The notes beneath the pieces are model-generated. The model made no database searches, had not been told where the DNA came from, and saw only the letters and a program-made list of their open reading frames with translations. Source: Hyphomicrobiales bacterium (GTDB lineage: Bacteria > Pseudomonadota > Alphaproteobacteria > Rhizobiales > Beijerinckiaceae). From it: a stretch of 64,000 nt of DNA. Of the stretch, positions 52,713 through 58,414 are shown in pieces (within the stretch, counting starts at the first letter, position 1; each line of letters opens with the position of its first letter). The DNA lies in assembly GCA_027484655.1 (NCBI GenBank), contig JAIXSM010000003.1, positions 1-64,000 on the forward strand, in the 5' to 3' direction. The translations under genes and the position numbers were made by a program.

Positions 52713-53399
52713 TCACAATATCGGCGGCTTGACTGTCGCCACCCCGATCATGGCGTCGCGGGTGATGAGGGCGGCCAGTTGCTCCTCGCTCATCCCCTCC
52801 GTTCCGGCCGGGCGTCGCGGAACGACCAGATAGCGCAGGTCAGCCGTGGAATCGCGTACGCGGATCTCGACGTCGTCGGGGACGCGAACGCCGAACTCCT
52901 CCAGCACGGCGCGCGGCTCGCGCACGATGCGAGCGCGATAAGCCTTGCTCTTGTACCAGGAAGGCGGCAGCCCCAGCAGCTCGCGCGGATAGCACGAGCA
53001 CAAGGTGCAAACGACGACGTTGTGCACCTTCTCGGTGTTTTCGAGCGCGATCAGGTGGGTTGTCGGCAAAGGATGGCCCAACTCGGCGGCGGCCGCGTTG
53101 GCCTCGGTCAGCAGCCGCTCGCGGTAGGCGGGATCCACCCAAGCGCGGGCGACGAGCTTTGCGCCGTTGCCGGGCGTGATCGAATCGCGCGCTTCGATGG
53201 CCGCGCGGACCTCATCCGCGGTGACGACGCCCTTCTCGATCAGCAGCTCCTTCAGGGCGACGCCGAGGATCTGGTAATACGAATGGACCTTGTCATCAGG
53301 CTGCGGCGGCGCGTGCTCGTGGTCATGATCATGATCATGATCGTGATCGTGATCGTGATCGTGATGATGATCGTGGTCGCCGTGCGCGTGCTGCGTCAT
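52713..53399 (-). CDS. Nitrile hydratase alpha / thiocyanate hydrolase gamma-like subunit with N-terminal His-Asp repeat
   Basis: VVVCTLCSCYPRELLGLPPSWYKSKAYRARIVREPRAVLEEFG; CTLCSC motif; N-term MTQHAHGDHDHHHDHDHDHDHDHDHDHEH. Confidence 0.93.
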   Translation of the reverse strand: MTQHAHGDHDHHHDHDHDHDHDHDHDHEHAPPQPDDKVHSYYQILGVALKELLIEKGVVTADEVRAAIEARDSITPGNGAKLVARAWVDPAYRERLLTEANAAAAELGHPLPTTHLIALENTEKVHNVVVCTLCSCYPRELLGLPPSWYKSKAYRARIVREPRAVLEEFGVRVPDDVEIRVRDSTADLRYLVVPRRPAGTEGMSEEQLAALITRDAMIGVATVKPPIL

Positions 53400-53457
53400 G
53401 CCCGTTTATCCTTTTTGATGGGCGGAGAGGCCGCGAGGCCCCTCCGCCGTTTGCACG

Positions 53458-55617
53458 TCAGGCCTTAAGGGTTTCGAGCACCCGCTCCGGCGTGAACGGC
53501 AGGTGCCGGATACGCTTGCCGGTGAGCCTGTAGAAGGCGTTGGCGATGGCGGCGCCGAGGAACGGATTGCCGATCTCGCCAAGGCCGGTGGGGCGCTGGT
53601 CGCTCTCGATGAAGGAAACCTCCATCACCTCGGGCAGGTCGGACATGCGCATGAGCGGATAGTCGTGGAAGTTGGACTGCTGCACCACGCCGTCCTTGAT
53701 GGTGATGCGCTCGTGCAGCAGGCCGGACAGGCCGTAAATGATGCCGCTTTCCACATTCGCCTTTGCCGGGCCAGGCGTGACAATGACGCCGCCATCGACC
53801 GAGATCCAGACCTTGTGGACCTTGATCTTGCCCGTCTCACGGTCGAGCGAGATCTCCACAACGCCGGCGCCAAGCGAGTTCGAGCGCTCGCTGAGCGAGA
53901 CGCCCAGCGCGCGGCCTGCCGGGCGTGGCGCGTTCCAGTCGCACATCTTGGCGACCTGCTCGAAGCAGCGACGCAGCTTCGGGATCGCCGCCATCCGCTC
54001 GATGCGGAACTGGATCGGATCCATCTTCGCCTCGACGGCCATCTCATCGACGAGGCTTTCAATGGCGAACACGTTGAACACGTGGCCAACGGCGCGCCAG
54101 TGCTTGAGCCGGATGCCGTGGGAGACGCCGCGCCGCTCGATGTCGAGGTTTGGCAAGTCGTAGTAGGGGATGCGGATACCGGTGTGCAGCAGCACGCCGC
54201 CGTCGCCAACGACGCAATGCTTCCACCCTGTGACCTTGCCCGTTGCGTCCTGCGCGGCCTCAAGACACTGGAACGCTGCGGGGCGGAACATGCCGAAGGC
54301 CATGTCCTCCTCACGCGTCCAGATCAGCTTCACAGGTCGCTTGACCTGCTTGGCGATAACGGCGCACTCGGCGGCGTAATCCCCAAGCGTACGGCGCCCG
54401 AAGCCGCCGCCCATGTAGCACTGATGCACAGTCACCGCCTGCGGAGGCAGACCCAGCGCCTTGGCGACCTCGTCGCGGGTGAAGTCAGGCGCCTGCGTGC
54501 CTTCCCAAACCTCCGCGCTCCCGCCGTCGTCCGCGATGCGCACAACGGCGTTCAGAGGCTCCATCTGGGCGTGATAGCCATAGTCAGCCCGATAGTCGGC
54601 CTTGAACTTCTTGGCGGCGGCGGTGAACGCCGCGTTGATGTCGCCCTTCTTTTCGATGCTGAAGACATTCGCCTTCGGATCGTTGTGAACCTTGACGTAG
54701 TTTTCGAGCGCCGCGTCGGAATCAAAGCTGCCGGCCGCGCCTGCGTCCCATTTTACGTTCAGTTTTTCGCTGGCCGCGCGCGCCTCAAGGAAACTCGCTG
54801 CGACGATAGCCACGCCATTCGACAGGCGCACGGTGTCGAGGACGCCCGGCAGCTTGCGGATCTCCGCGTCGTTCCATTCCACGGGCTTGCCGGTGTGGAC
54901 CGGCGCATGAATGGCGGTGGCGTACACCATGCCGGGCAGCTTCACGTCCATGGCGTAGATGGCGGAGCCGTTGACCTTCGCCGGCGTGTCGCGGCGCGCA
55001 ACGCCTCGCCCTATCATTCGCCACTGACTACGCGGCTTGAGTTCGCTTGCCTCCACCTTCGGCAGCGGATCGGGGATCGATCCTTTCGCGGCGATGTCGC
55101 CATAGGAGAGCTTCTGGCCGTTGGCCGGGTTGATGACGAAGCCCGGCTCGGTGCGCAGCGTCTTGGCGTCGGCGCCCCACTGCTGCGCGGCGTTCTGGAT
55201 GAGCACCTTGCGCACTTGCGCGCCGGCCATCCGCAGATCGTTGAAATAGAGCATGACCGCGCGGCTGCCGACGATGGACATGCCACGCTCGTTGTTGAAC
55301 GTGTAGCCGTAGACATCGCGATCCGCCGGCGCCATCTCGATGACGACCTTCGACCAGTCGGCGTCCATTTCCTCGGCGAGGATCATCGGCAGCGAGGTCT
55401 TGGAGCCCTGCCCCATTTCGGCGCCGGCGCTGTAGATCGTCACGACTCCGTCCGGCGCAATTCGCACCCAGGCGTTGATGGCGCGCGCGGCGCCCTGCGC
55501 ATGCGCGTCGGCGAACAGGCTTGCGCCGTCAGAGCCGATGGCGACGGCAAACGACATGCCGCCAAGGCCGGCGAGGAACCCACGACGGGACAGGTTGGAG
55601 CTTTCCAGCATGGTCAT
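53458..55617 (-). CDS. Molybdopterin-binding xanthine dehydrogenase-family subunit (IorB/aldehyde oxidase-like), Tat-type signal
   Basis: SNLSRRGFLAGLGG (twin Arg); GAEMGQGSKTSLPMILAEEMDADW; MGGGFGRRTLGDYAAE. Confidence 0.93.
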   Translation of the reverse strand: MTMLESSNLSRRGFLAGLGGMSFAVAIGSDGASLFADAHAQGAARAINAWVRIAPDGVVTIYSAGAEMGQGSKTSLPMILAEEMDADWSKVVIEMAPADRDVYGYTFNNERGMSIVGSRAVMLYFNDLRMAGAQVRKVLIQNAAQQWGADAKTLRTEPGFVINPANGQKLSYGDIAAKGSIPDPLPKVEASELKPRSQWRMIGRGVARRDTPAKVNGSAIYAMDVKLPGMVYATAIHAPVHTGKPVEWNDAEIRKLPGVLDTVRLSNGVAIVAASFLEARAASEKLNVKWDAGAAGSFDSDAALENYVKVHNDPKANVFSIEKKGDINAAFTAAAKKFKADYRADYGYHAQMEPLNAVVRIADDGGSAEVWEGTQAPDFTRDEVAKALGLPPQAVTVHQCYMGGGFGRRTLGDYAAECAVIAKQVKRPVKLIWTREEDMAFGMFRPAAFQCLEAAQDATGKVTGWKHCVVGDGGVLLHTGIRIPYYDLPNLDIERRGVSHGIRLKHWRAVGHVFNVFAIESLVDEMAVEAKMDPIQFRIERMAAIPKLRRCFEQVAKMCDWNAPRPAGRALGVSLSERSNSLGAGVVEISLDRETGKIKVHKVWISVDGGVIVTPGPAKANVESGIIYGLSGLLHERITIKDGVVQQSNFHDYPLMRMSDLPEVMEVSFIESDQRPTGLGEIGNPFLGAAIANAFYRLTGKRIRHLPFTPERVLETLKA

Positions 55618-55620
55618 GGA

Positions 55621-56073
55621 TCAGCCCTCCTTCGAAGCGGTTTCAATCGCGGCGATGATGTTGTGATAGGTGCCGCACCGGCAGATGTTGCCGTCCATAT
55701 GCTGCACGATCTGCTCGCGGGTCGGCTTCGGCGTCTTGGCGAGGAGTTCCGCCGCCTTCATGATCTGGCCGGACTGGCAGTAACCGCACTGGGGCACCTC
55801 GTGCCGAACCCACGCCTTCTGGAGGGGGTGCGACGAATTGGGGGAAAGCCCCTCGATCGTCGTGACGTTCTTGCCCGCGGCTTCCGACGCCAGCGTCTGG
55901 CAGGAGCGCAGCGCCTCGCCGTTGATGTGAATGGTGCAGGCGCCGCAAAGCCCGGCGCCGCAGCCGTATTTCGTGCCAGTCAGGCCGATCTGATCGCGGA
56001 TCACCCACAAAAGCGGCGTATCGGGCTTGGCGTCCACCGACACGGCGCGCCCGTTCAGATTGAATGAAACCAT
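55621..56073 (-). CDS. (2Fe-2S)-binding protein, partner of Mo hydroxylase
   Basis: GTKYGCGAGLCGACTIHINGEALRSCQ; PQCGYCQSGQIMKA; NICRCGTYHNI. Confidence 0.96.
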   Translation of the reverse strand: MVSFNLNGRAVSVDAKPDTPLLWVIRDQIGLTGTKYGCGAGLCGACTIHINGEALRSCQTLASEAAGKNVTTIEGLSPNSSHPLQKAWVRHEVPQCGYCQSGQIMKAAELLAKTPKPTREQIVQHMDGNICRCGTYHNIIAAIETASKEG

Positions 56074-56172
56074 GTTCCCTCCAAAGCGGCGCGATCTCTT
56101 TTGGGTCTGCGCCAGATGTTGATGCTGCCATGACCGCCAGACGAGAGCAAACCTCCCCGCCCGCGCGGCGTT

Positions 56173-57147
56173 TTACTCAGGCTTGAGGCCCGCAGCGGCG
56201 ACGATCTTCGCCCACACCTCAAGCTCGGCGTTCAAACGCGCCCGCGTCGCCGCCGGCCCATCGCGCAGGACGAAGCCTGCGATACTCTCCATGAACTTGC
56301 GCGCGTCCTCGCCGCTCGACGCCTGATTGAGCCAGCCCGCCAGCTTTTCCACGATGGGCGCGGGCGTGCCCGCAGGCAGGTAGGCGCCCCACCAGGCGGA
56401 AAAGACGAAGCCCTTCAGCCCCGCCTCCTGCATTGTAGGAACATCAGGCATGCTCGCCAAACGCTCGGCGGTGGTGACAGCCAGCGCGCGCAACCGCCCC
56501 GCCCGCACCTGCCCCGACGCGAAGGTGCCGTCCAGAATGATGAAATCCAGCGCTCCGCTGGCGAGGTCGGCGACGGCGTCCGGGCCGTTCTTGTAGGCCA
56601 CGGGCGCAGTCTTCAGCCCCGTGAGCGTCTTGTAATACTCGCTGGTGACAAGCGACATCTGGTTCGCGTACCCGTACAAGCTGCGCGGCTTGGCGCGCAG
56701 AAGCTCGGTCAATTCCGCAACGCTCTTCACCGGAGACTGGGGCGCGACCGTCAGCACGAACGCGCTGTCCGAGAACAGGCCCACAGGGTCGAAGTCCTTG
56801 ATGGTGTCGAACCCCAGATCCTTGAACAGGAACCGGCTGCCGGCCATGTTCGAGTTGGCGGCGAACAGGATCGTGTAACCATCAGGCTTCGACTTGGCGA
56901 CCGTGCCGGCGGCGATGTTTGCGGTGGCGCCAGGGCGGTTTTCGACGACCACGGTCTGGCCGCTTACCTCCTCAAGCTTGCGCGCGAACCAGCGGCAGAG
57001 AATGTCGGCGCCGCTGCCAGCGGGAAAACCGACGATGACGCGGAGCGGCCGGGACGGCCAGTCGCCTGTCTGCGCGCTCGACGGCAGACCGGAGGCGGCA
57101 AAAGCGCCGGCTGTGAGCGCAAGCGCGCGGCGACGTGAGATAGCCAT
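56173..57147 (-). CDS. Tripartite tricarboxylate transporter (Bug-family) substrate-binding protein
   Basis: WPSRPLRVIVGFPAGSGADILCRWFARKLEEVSGQTVVVENRPGATANIAAGTVAKSKPDGYTIL. Confidence 0.95.
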   Translation of the reverse strand: MAISRRRALALTAGAFAASGLPSSAQTGDWPSRPLRVIVGFPAGSGADILCRWFARKLEEVSGQTVVVENRPGATANIAAGTVAKSKPDGYTILFAANSNMAGSRFLFKDLGFDTIKDFDPVGLFSDSAFVLTVAPQSPVKSVAELTELLRAKPRSLYGYANQMSLVTSEYYKTLTGLKTAPVAYKNGPDAVADLASGALDFIILDGTFASGQVRAGRLRALAVTTAERLASMPDVPTMQEAGLKGFVFSAWWGAYLPAGTPAPIVEKLAGWLNQASSGEDARKFMESIAGFVLRDGPAATRARLNAELEVWAKIVAAAGLKPE

Positions 57148-57199
57148 GGATGATCCTCCCTCTTCGTTGATTTTTGATCGTTACTGGCGCTGGCCCGTT

Positions 57200-57511
57200 T
57201 CAACCGCCCGGCGCGGGGGAGAGCCAGTTCTCCTGCAGGTCGATCTCGAGCGCGTCATCGGGCGCGCCGCGATAATCGGGCCACACATCCGCCTGACGAA
57301 AGCGCACTTCGTAGACGTTCTTGCGGTCGCCCTTGAAGCCAAAAGCGAGCGTCTCCGCGTTGCCGAACGCGCCGAAGCAACGTGTGACGACGCCGGTCTT
57401 GCCGCGGATGTAAACCGGGGTCCGGAAGTGGCCGACAGGGTAATCGTCGCGCACGAGAACACGGTCGCCCTCGCGGAAGCGCACGGTGGGAGACGCGCCG
57501 CTCACCGGCAC
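57200..57511 (-). CDS. Nitrile hydratase beta C-terminal half / thiocyanate hydrolase alpha-like subunit
   Basis: FREGDRVLVRDDYPVGHFRTPVYIRGKTGVVTRCFGAFGNAE...YEVRFRQADVWPDY. Confidence 0.9.
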   Translation of the reverse strand: MPVSGASPTVRFREGDRVLVRDDYPVGHFRTPVYIRGKTGVVTRCFGAFGNAETLAFGFKGDRKNVYEVRFRQADVWPDYRGAPDDALEIDLQENWLSPAPGG

Positions 57512-57849
57512 TTCTCCTCTTCGCCCGGGCGCAGCTCCAGTTCGCCGCTCTCCTCGAGGCGCTTGCGCACTTCAGCGACTTTCGCGTCGATCTCATCCTG
57601 GGTGAGGACGCCCTTGTCGATCATTTGCCGCTGCAGCGAGGCGGTCCAGCGCTCGTAGTAGCTCAGGCGCTCGTAGGCGTCGTGGCCAAGCTGCTCGACG
57701 GTGCGGCGGTTCTCATGGCTGCTGACGAGGCCTTTCGCGCCAATGACGGCGCGCACGCCATCGATCTGCTTTTCCCAGAAGGCGAGATCATGGGTCGAGG
57801 TGTCGATGGGTCCGGCGTCGAGGCCGCCCACATCATGGGGTCCGCGCAT
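57502..57849 (-). CDS. Nitrile hydratase beta N-terminal half / thiocyanate hydrolase beta-like subunit
   Basis: MRGPHDVGGLDAGPID...FWEKQIDGVRAVIGAKGL...LSYYERWTASLQRQMIDKGVLTQDEIDAK. Confidence 0.88.
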   Translation of the reverse strand: MRGPHDVGGLDAGPIDTSTHDLAFWEKQIDGVRAVIGAKGLVSSHENRRTVEQLGHDAYERLSYYERWTASLQRQMIDKGVLTQDEIDAKVAEVRKRLEESGELELRPGEEEKCR

Positions 57850-57979: not shown

Positions 57980-58414
57980 ATGGAAAAGACGTTCACGCGA
58001 TTCGCAAACGCGGTGTCCCGCGCCGCAGGACGGCCCCTCACCTTCGTCGTCTGCTGCGCGTCGATTATCATATGGGGCGCGACCGGACCGCTGTTTGGCT
58101 TTTCCGATAGCTGGCAGCTCGTCGTGAACACGACGACGACGATCATCACCTTTCTGATGGTGTTCCTGATTCAGAACACCCAGAACCGGGACGGCGCCGC
58201 CATTCAGGCCAAGCTCGACGAACTGCTGCGCGCTGTATCGGACGCCCGCAATGACTTTATCGGCATCGAGCATCTGACCGAGCGCGAACTCGCCGAGATT
58301 CTGGCGGAGGTGGAGCGGGAGACTGTTGGGGAACTCCCCGGCGCCGGGGGAATGCGGAAGGTCGAGCTGCTGCGCGCCTCCTTCGAGCGGATGGCGCGCA
58401 CGCAGGGCCTGTAA
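57980..58414 (+). CDS. Low-affinity iron permease family protein
   Basis: FTRFANAVSRAAGRPLTFVVCCASIIIWGATGPLFGFSDSWQLVVNTTTTIITFLMVFLIQNTQNRDGAAIQAKLDELL. Confidence 0.93.
   Translation: MEKTFTRFANAVSRAAGRPLTFVVCCASIIIWGATGPLFGFSDSWQLVVNTTTTIITFLMVFLIQNTQNRDGAAIQAKLDELLRAVSDARNDFIGIEHLTERELAEILAEVERETVGELPGAGGMRKVELLRASFERMARTQGL

Follow-up and report, generated by a model that had tools for sequence, protein, structure and literature searches.

The 64,000-nucleotide stretch analysed here, referred to as the window, begins contig JAIXSM010000003.1 of a Hyphomicrobiales bacterium (assembly GCA_027484655.1) and carries at positions 52713-57849 six intact open reading frames, in which the genes of a three-subunit hydratase enclose those of a molybdenum (Mo) hydroxylase. 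All six lie on the minus strand, in the order beta-N, beta-C, Bug-type solute-binding protein, 2Fe-2S protein, Mo subunit and alpha (Table 1). The hydratase belongs to the superfamily of nitrile hydratase (NHase) and thiocyanate hydrolase (SCNase), with the beta polypeptide divided between two genes whose reading frames share 10 bp. A first-pass annotation had proposed these genes with their order, strand, coordinates, overlap and domain assignments, all of which were confirmed. From the beta-C stop codon to the alpha start codon the distance is ~3.8 kb, compared with ~10-20 bp in close relatives.

Table 1. Features of the hydratase locus in window coordinates
Feature	Position	Strand	Details
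beta-N subunit (NHase beta N-terminal half / SCNase beta equivalent)	57502..57849	-	115 aa; PF21006 (NHase_beta_N) 2e-20
beta-C subunit (NHase beta C-terminal half / SCNase alpha equivalent)	57200..57511	-	103 aa; PF02211 (NHase_beta_C) 3e-20
Bug/TctC-type solute-binding protein	56173..57147	-	324 aa; PF03401 (TctC) 1e-47
2Fe-2S subunit, xanthine-oxidase-family enzyme	55621..56073	-	150 aa; PF01799 (Fer2_2) 5e-30, PF00111
Molybdopterin-binding (Mo) subunit	53458..55617	-	719 aa; PF02738 (MoCoBD_1) 2e-45, PF20256 (MoCoBD_2) 1e-32
Hairpin between Mo and alpha genes	53421..53448	-	12-bp perfect stem, without uridine tract (U-tract)
alpha subunit (SCNase gamma equivalent)	52713..53399	-	228 aa; PF02979 (NHase_alpha) 4e-82
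His/Asp-rich N-terminal tail of alpha	53313..53390	-	begins HAHGDHDHHHDHDHDH
Metal-claw codons CTLCSC of alpha	52992..53009	-	sequence
Arg139 codon of alpha (CYP-R)	52983..52985	-	position of SCNase gamma Arg136 / NHase alpha Trp

The alpha subunit possesses a metal claw of the cobalt type, C131-T-L-C134-S-C136, within the region CTLCSCYPRELLG. Immediately beyond the claw the motif reads CTLCSCYPR in SCNase gamma and CTLCSCYPW in two-subunit NHases, and the window protein has Arg. The plain label "nitrile hydratase" misses this residue at the position of SCNase gamma Arg136. The exchange has a counterpart among solved structures, as PDB entry 3vyg, filed among SCNase entries, differs from 2dd4_C at the Arg136 position alone, with R replaced by W, and 3vyh is placed in the 1ire group of NHase. 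We take 3vyg and 3vyh to be deliberate R-to-W and W-to-R mutants, the W of 3vyg itself being visible in its sequence. The His/Asp-rich tail at the alpha N-terminus is common in the split-beta family of the window and is present in SCNase gamma too. For beta-N, the best solved relative is SCNase beta (2dd4_B, 2.5e-9), and beta-C matches 3qyg_B (8e-15) and SCNase alpha (2dd4_A, 3e-11). Arg48-Arg49 of beta-N line up with Arg91-Arg92 of SCNase beta, Arg48 being the invariant superfamily Arg, and a second conserved beta Arg lies in the YIRGKTG motif of beta-C; the window trio retains the claw and all superfamily beta Arg residues. No signal peptide was seen on the hydratase.

Divided beta genes and the claw-adjacent Arg were found together across a wide range of loci. 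In a set of 97, a split beta accompanied Arg in 48 and a fused beta accompanied Trp in 31, with no fused beta accompanying Arg; the exceptions were Ile in two actinobacterial split loci and Trp in one split locus. A separate sample of the phylum added eight split-beta loci with Arg besides the window and one with Trp. Because the window alpha or related models served as query, these samples do not constitute a census. Split loci on plasmids of Agrobacterium, Planktothrix and Streptomyces have Arg in 3/3, and fused NHases with a readable motif have Trp in all sampled cases but two with His. Thus far the Arg-type split family has been seen in Alphaproteobacteria, a Burkholderiales genome, Acidobacteria, a cyanobacterial plasmid and a Streptomyces plasmid. 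In the alpha tree, Arg rows and SCNase gamma fall on one side of a branch with a support of 100 by approximate likelihood ratio test (SH-aLRT) in one tree; when the Arg column was left out, the same branch, which separates Arg rows from all fused NHases, had a support of 100/99. The split-beta architecture with an scnB-scnA-scnC-like order, as originally annotated, is borne out by this clade with SCNase gamma and by the uninterrupted beta-N/beta-C/alpha order that is normal in the genus.

Several split loci stand apart in detail. Two (L033 and L158) score as split beta yet carry Trp, and may be frameshifts or further split. The actinobacterial hydratases at L040 and L051, with Ile after CTLCSCYP, lie outside the Arg clade and are possibly a second split lineage, perhaps ToyJKL-like. 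An acidobacterial Arg-type trio (L017) is ordered beta-C, alpha, beta-N.

The alpha protein is present in 38/51 genomes of the same genus, a few of these being fragments or short weak matches, and surroundings were fetched for most of the alpha-bearing genomes. Among these, beta-N, beta-C and alpha are directly adjacent in 30, and the 2Fe-2S and Mo genes lie between beta-C and alpha in three: that of the window, G050 (locus L108) and G013 (loci L123 and L002, the alpha gene being cut by a contig end). Two other species-level genomes thus carry the same arrangement, which rules out chance or an assembly artefact. The Bug gene is found in the operon of the window genome only; absent from those of G013 and G050, it was rejected as a conserved part of the operon, and its nearest proteins in the genus stand at 53-55%. 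Where the first-pass annotation described an interruption by about 3.7 kb of Mo-hydroxylase and transport genes, the Mo-hydroxylase part holds, at a measured ~3.8 kb, and the transport part does not extend to the other two enclosed operons.

The interrupted genomes form one clade in the alpha tree (support 100/91), a grouping of alpha genes rather than a whole-genome phylogeny. Five relatives (G047, G030, G031, G010 and G027) have an uninterrupted trio beside guaB and an iron-permease gene, the same site as in the window, and in several of them rsmB and guaA occupy the opposite flank. Since the interrupted genomes form a clade whose nearest relatives keep the trio intact beside guaB, these sequences are most simply read as recording one insertion of the Mo module in the common ancestor of the three genomes, with the interruption as the derived state of an otherwise conserved operon. 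Relative to G050 and G013, the ratio of nonsynonymous to synonymous substitution rates (dN/dS) is 0.05-0.15 for enclosed and enclosing genes, and 0.08-0.15 for the enclosed genes alone, revealing purifying selection. For the inserted genes dS is 0.62-0.91, close to the ~0.68 of guaB, so that a recent horizontal arrival of the module is not favoured. The iron-permease gene, of the low-affinity iron permease family, lies at 57980-58414 of the window, between the hydratase operon and guaB, and keeps its place in several members of the genus.

The Mo subunit begins with the twin-arginine motif SRRGFLAG, carries GGGFG and GLGE motifs and has an IsoB/AldH-type domain order. Its best solved relative, matched over nearly the full length, is 8gy3_C (7e-84), the large subunit of an aldehyde dehydrogenase. 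With a 2Fe-2S subunit and a Mo subunit that combines a twin-arginine translocation (Tat) signal with the catalytic Glu motif GLGE, the module displays the hallmarks of IsoAB/AldFGH-type enzymes, and on these motifs it is an IsoAB/aldehyde-dehydrogenase-type enzyme. The 2Fe-2S protein is 91-92% identical in G013/G050 and 78% in G039. This last genome has the 2Fe-2S/Mo orthologues (78% and 71% identical) and the intact trio on different contigs, and the genes after the pair encode a Bug protein and an FAD-binding monooxygenase. More distant homologues (39-44%), on plasmids and within the family, occur as 2Fe-2S/Mo pairs with genes for regulators, Bug proteins or ring oxygenases next to them, neighbourhoods whose predicted functions fit aromatic or aldehyde oxidation. 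At five same-genus loci (L107, L124, L134, L140 and L143), an uninterrupted trio has genes for CoxL-like Mo subunits and for 2Fe-2S proteins within 10 kb, their products 20-40% identical to those of the window. These neighbours (Mo subunits 20-30% identical) were not counted towards a general link, as such genes are numerous in these genomes and may lie within 10 kb by chance.

A 12-pair hairpin marks the Mo/alpha junction in all three enclosed operons (z-scores of -4.0, -3.8 and -3.2); the G013 and G050 hairpins are alike in sequence and differ from that of the window, and none of the three is followed by a U-tract. At a like distance 3' of the Mo gene, G039 has a hairpin with TTTTATTTT (L106:9550-9626), a textbook intrinsic terminator. 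From this comparison we infer that a terminator came in with the module and has since lost its U-tract, a loss that would leave alpha reachable by transcription. Alpha may have a promoter of its own; a promoter scan gave no signal above chance.

Overall, we favour, with a probability of roughly 0.6, a reading in which a stand-alone three-subunit cobalt hydratase operon received a passenger Mo oxidoreductase once and is now partly co-transcribed with it. The trio would be a cobalt hydratase of the NHase/SCNase superfamily, its beta made from two genes and an SCNase-type Arg taking the place of the NHase-type Trp. In an ancestor of the three known species, the 2Fe-2S/Mo pair would have inserted between beta-C and alpha, the Bug gene being either gained in the window genome or lost in the other two. 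Low-spin Co(III) is expected in the CTLCSC claw, whose oxidised cysteines the conserved beta-N and beta-C Arg residues would hold in place, and this centre would hydrate a small substrate at its C-N triple bond. Next to the claw, the additional Arg may favour a small polar or anionic, thiocyanate-like substrate over neutral aliphatic nitriles. The Tat-exported Mo enzyme would oxidise an aldehyde or N-heteroaromatic in the periplasm, as a passenger and not as the next step of the hydratase pathway, and alpha would be reached by partial read-through of the hairpin that follows the Mo gene.

Several points weigh against this account. It is built from sequence. The pairing of split beta with Arg has its exceptions in two actinobacterial loci with Ile and two loci with Trp, and both traits changed few times on the tree, so that their association does not represent many independent events. 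The phylogeny called for in the first-pass annotation, as far as SCNase and classical NHases are concerned, placed the window alpha on the SCNase side, opposite classical NHases; SCNase gamma, a single long-branch sequence, may sit inside or beside the Arg rows (approximately unbiased test, p-AU 0.225). A search of 399 genomes of the phylum for true SCNases to add to the tree gave none above the cutoff of the SCNase gamma model TIGR03887. Finally, retention of the enclosure across three species, with dS near 0.6-1.9, may reflect a functional link.

The identity of the hydratase admits two alternatives. A true SCNase, converting thiocyanate into carbonyl sulfide and ammonia, would account for the divided beta, the scnB-scnA-scnC order, the Arg at the gamma-136 position, the tree position and the closeness of beta-N to the SCNase beta structure, as well as for Arg at the SCNase beta Arg92 position, which is found in 36/47 split rows and is mostly absent from fused rows. 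The assignment nonetheless appears improbable: the window alpha scores 214 bits against the SCNase gamma model TIGR03887 (cutoff 291.45) and passes the NHase alpha model TIGR01323 with 261.8 bits (cutoff 249.85), and other members of the Arg family score likewise on both. In alignments the SCNase gamma loop ahead of the claw is missing from the window alpha, as are the first ~44 N-terminal residues of SCNase beta from beta-N; Asn replaces SCNase beta Arg90. A beta-N-like activator gene was not found genome-wide, PF21006 matching only the beta-N gene itself, though an unrelated activator may exist. Because it falls under the SCNase cutoff, lacks the gamma loop and the beta N-terminal extension and has Asn at beta Arg90, the trio is, as far as sequence can assign it, an SCNase-side, split-beta cobalt hydratase and not SCNase proper. 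An ordinary NHase with a divided beta gene, acting on aliphatic or aromatic nitriles, would suit the NCBIfam name, nitrile hydratase alpha, and the retained claw and superfamily beta Arg residues. We consider this unlikely, given the Arg in place of the pocket Trp of the sampled fused NHases (the two with His excepted) and the tree, which sets the Arg rows apart from all fused NHases. The window hydratase belongs to a broad, apparently uncharacterised family annotated as nitrile hydratase.

A third alternative concerns the enclosure itself, which selection may have fused into one pathway whose Mo enzyme and hydratase share a substrate family, for example a cyano-N-heterocycle that is hydroxylated and then hydrated to the amide. 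Gene layout lends this some appeal, as the genes share a strand with short gaps, the enclosure is kept in three species under purifying selection, and the hairpin of the enclosed operons lacks a U-tract; enzymes of this Mo type act on aldehydes and N-heteroaromatics, and the G039 pair precedes Bug and FAD monooxygenase genes. Distribution argues otherwise: outside the three enclosed operons, no genome examined has trio and module joined, not even G039, where each is present, and a single inherited insertion does not amount to repeated selection. In most genomes the trio stands alone among housekeeping genes (guaB/guaA, rpsB-tsf-frr, fliG and others), and no conserved pathway partner was found beside it inside or outside the genus, its neighbours being housekeeping or variable. 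The predicted Tat-exported Mo enzyme and cytoplasmic hydratase would also occupy different compartments. The operon has no amidase, all amidases of this genome lying on other contigs, in agreement with the initial report of neither amidase nor activator at the locus. We regard this reading as rather unlikely, as we do a shared pathway of hydratase and Mo enzyme in general. Similarly unlikely is a selected unit in which the Mo hydroxylase in the periplasm and the SCNase-like cobalt hydratase in the cytoplasm process a single compound, be it a nitrile, cyanide-derived or thiocyanate-like, while the hairpin sets the ratio of the hydratase subunits. The earlier suggestion of a single pathway for an N-heterocyclic nitrile, cyanide or thiocyanate compound is thus unsupported, given the trio alone elsewhere, the separate module in G039, the differing compartments and the unconserved Bug gene. 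Our searches of the open-access literature turned up no nitrile hydratase described as enclosing a Mo hydroxylase.

The locus can be compared with several known systems. With SCNase (scnBAC, PDB 2dd4) the trio shares a divided beta plus alpha-type subunit in the same order, the CTLCSC claw, the gamma-136 Arg and a His-rich N-terminus; it differs in falling under the equivalog cutoff, in lacking the gamma loop, beta N-terminal extension and activator, in Asn at beta-90 and in its 3.8-kb interruption. Two-subunit cobalt NHases (2dpp, 3qxe, 1ire) have the same fold, claw and invariant beta Args, and the window alpha passes their TIGR01323 cutoff; in contrast, the window beta comes from two genes, Arg replaces Trp beside the claw, and the two lie on opposite sides of the tree. 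Plasmid split nitrile hydratases of Agrobacterium (L186), Planktothrix (L187) and Streptomyces (L188) are of the same family, with split beta and CYP-R alpha, but enclose no Mo module. In L186:3595-7013 (pAt1, ordered beta-C, alpha, beta-N) and L188:3239-7011, the Arg-type hydratase genes are followed by those for an aquaporin and cobalt transport (CbtB/CbtA; HoxN/HupN/NixA family), neighbours whose annotations may point to cobalt and to a substrate or product small enough to permeate membranes. The toyocamycin nitrile hydratase ToyJKL is likewise a three-subunit NHase, encoded in a biosynthetic cluster; among actinobacterial split rows, L040 and L051 have Ile at the Arg position and are not part of the Arg clade. 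The Mo module resembles IsoAB and the membrane aldehyde dehydrogenase 8gy3 in the near full-length alignment of its Mo subunit with 8gy3_C, its Tat signal and its separate 2Fe-2S subunit, but has no adjacent cytochrome c subunit and sits inside a hydratase operon.

Databases name proteins of the window type nitrile hydratase alpha or "SH3-like domain-containing protein". The split-beta/Arg rule suggests instead that they make up a broad SCNase-side family, which may not act on ordinary nitriles, and the interrupted operon offers a natural case of multi-subunit enzyme genes pushed 3.8 kb apart and still under selection.

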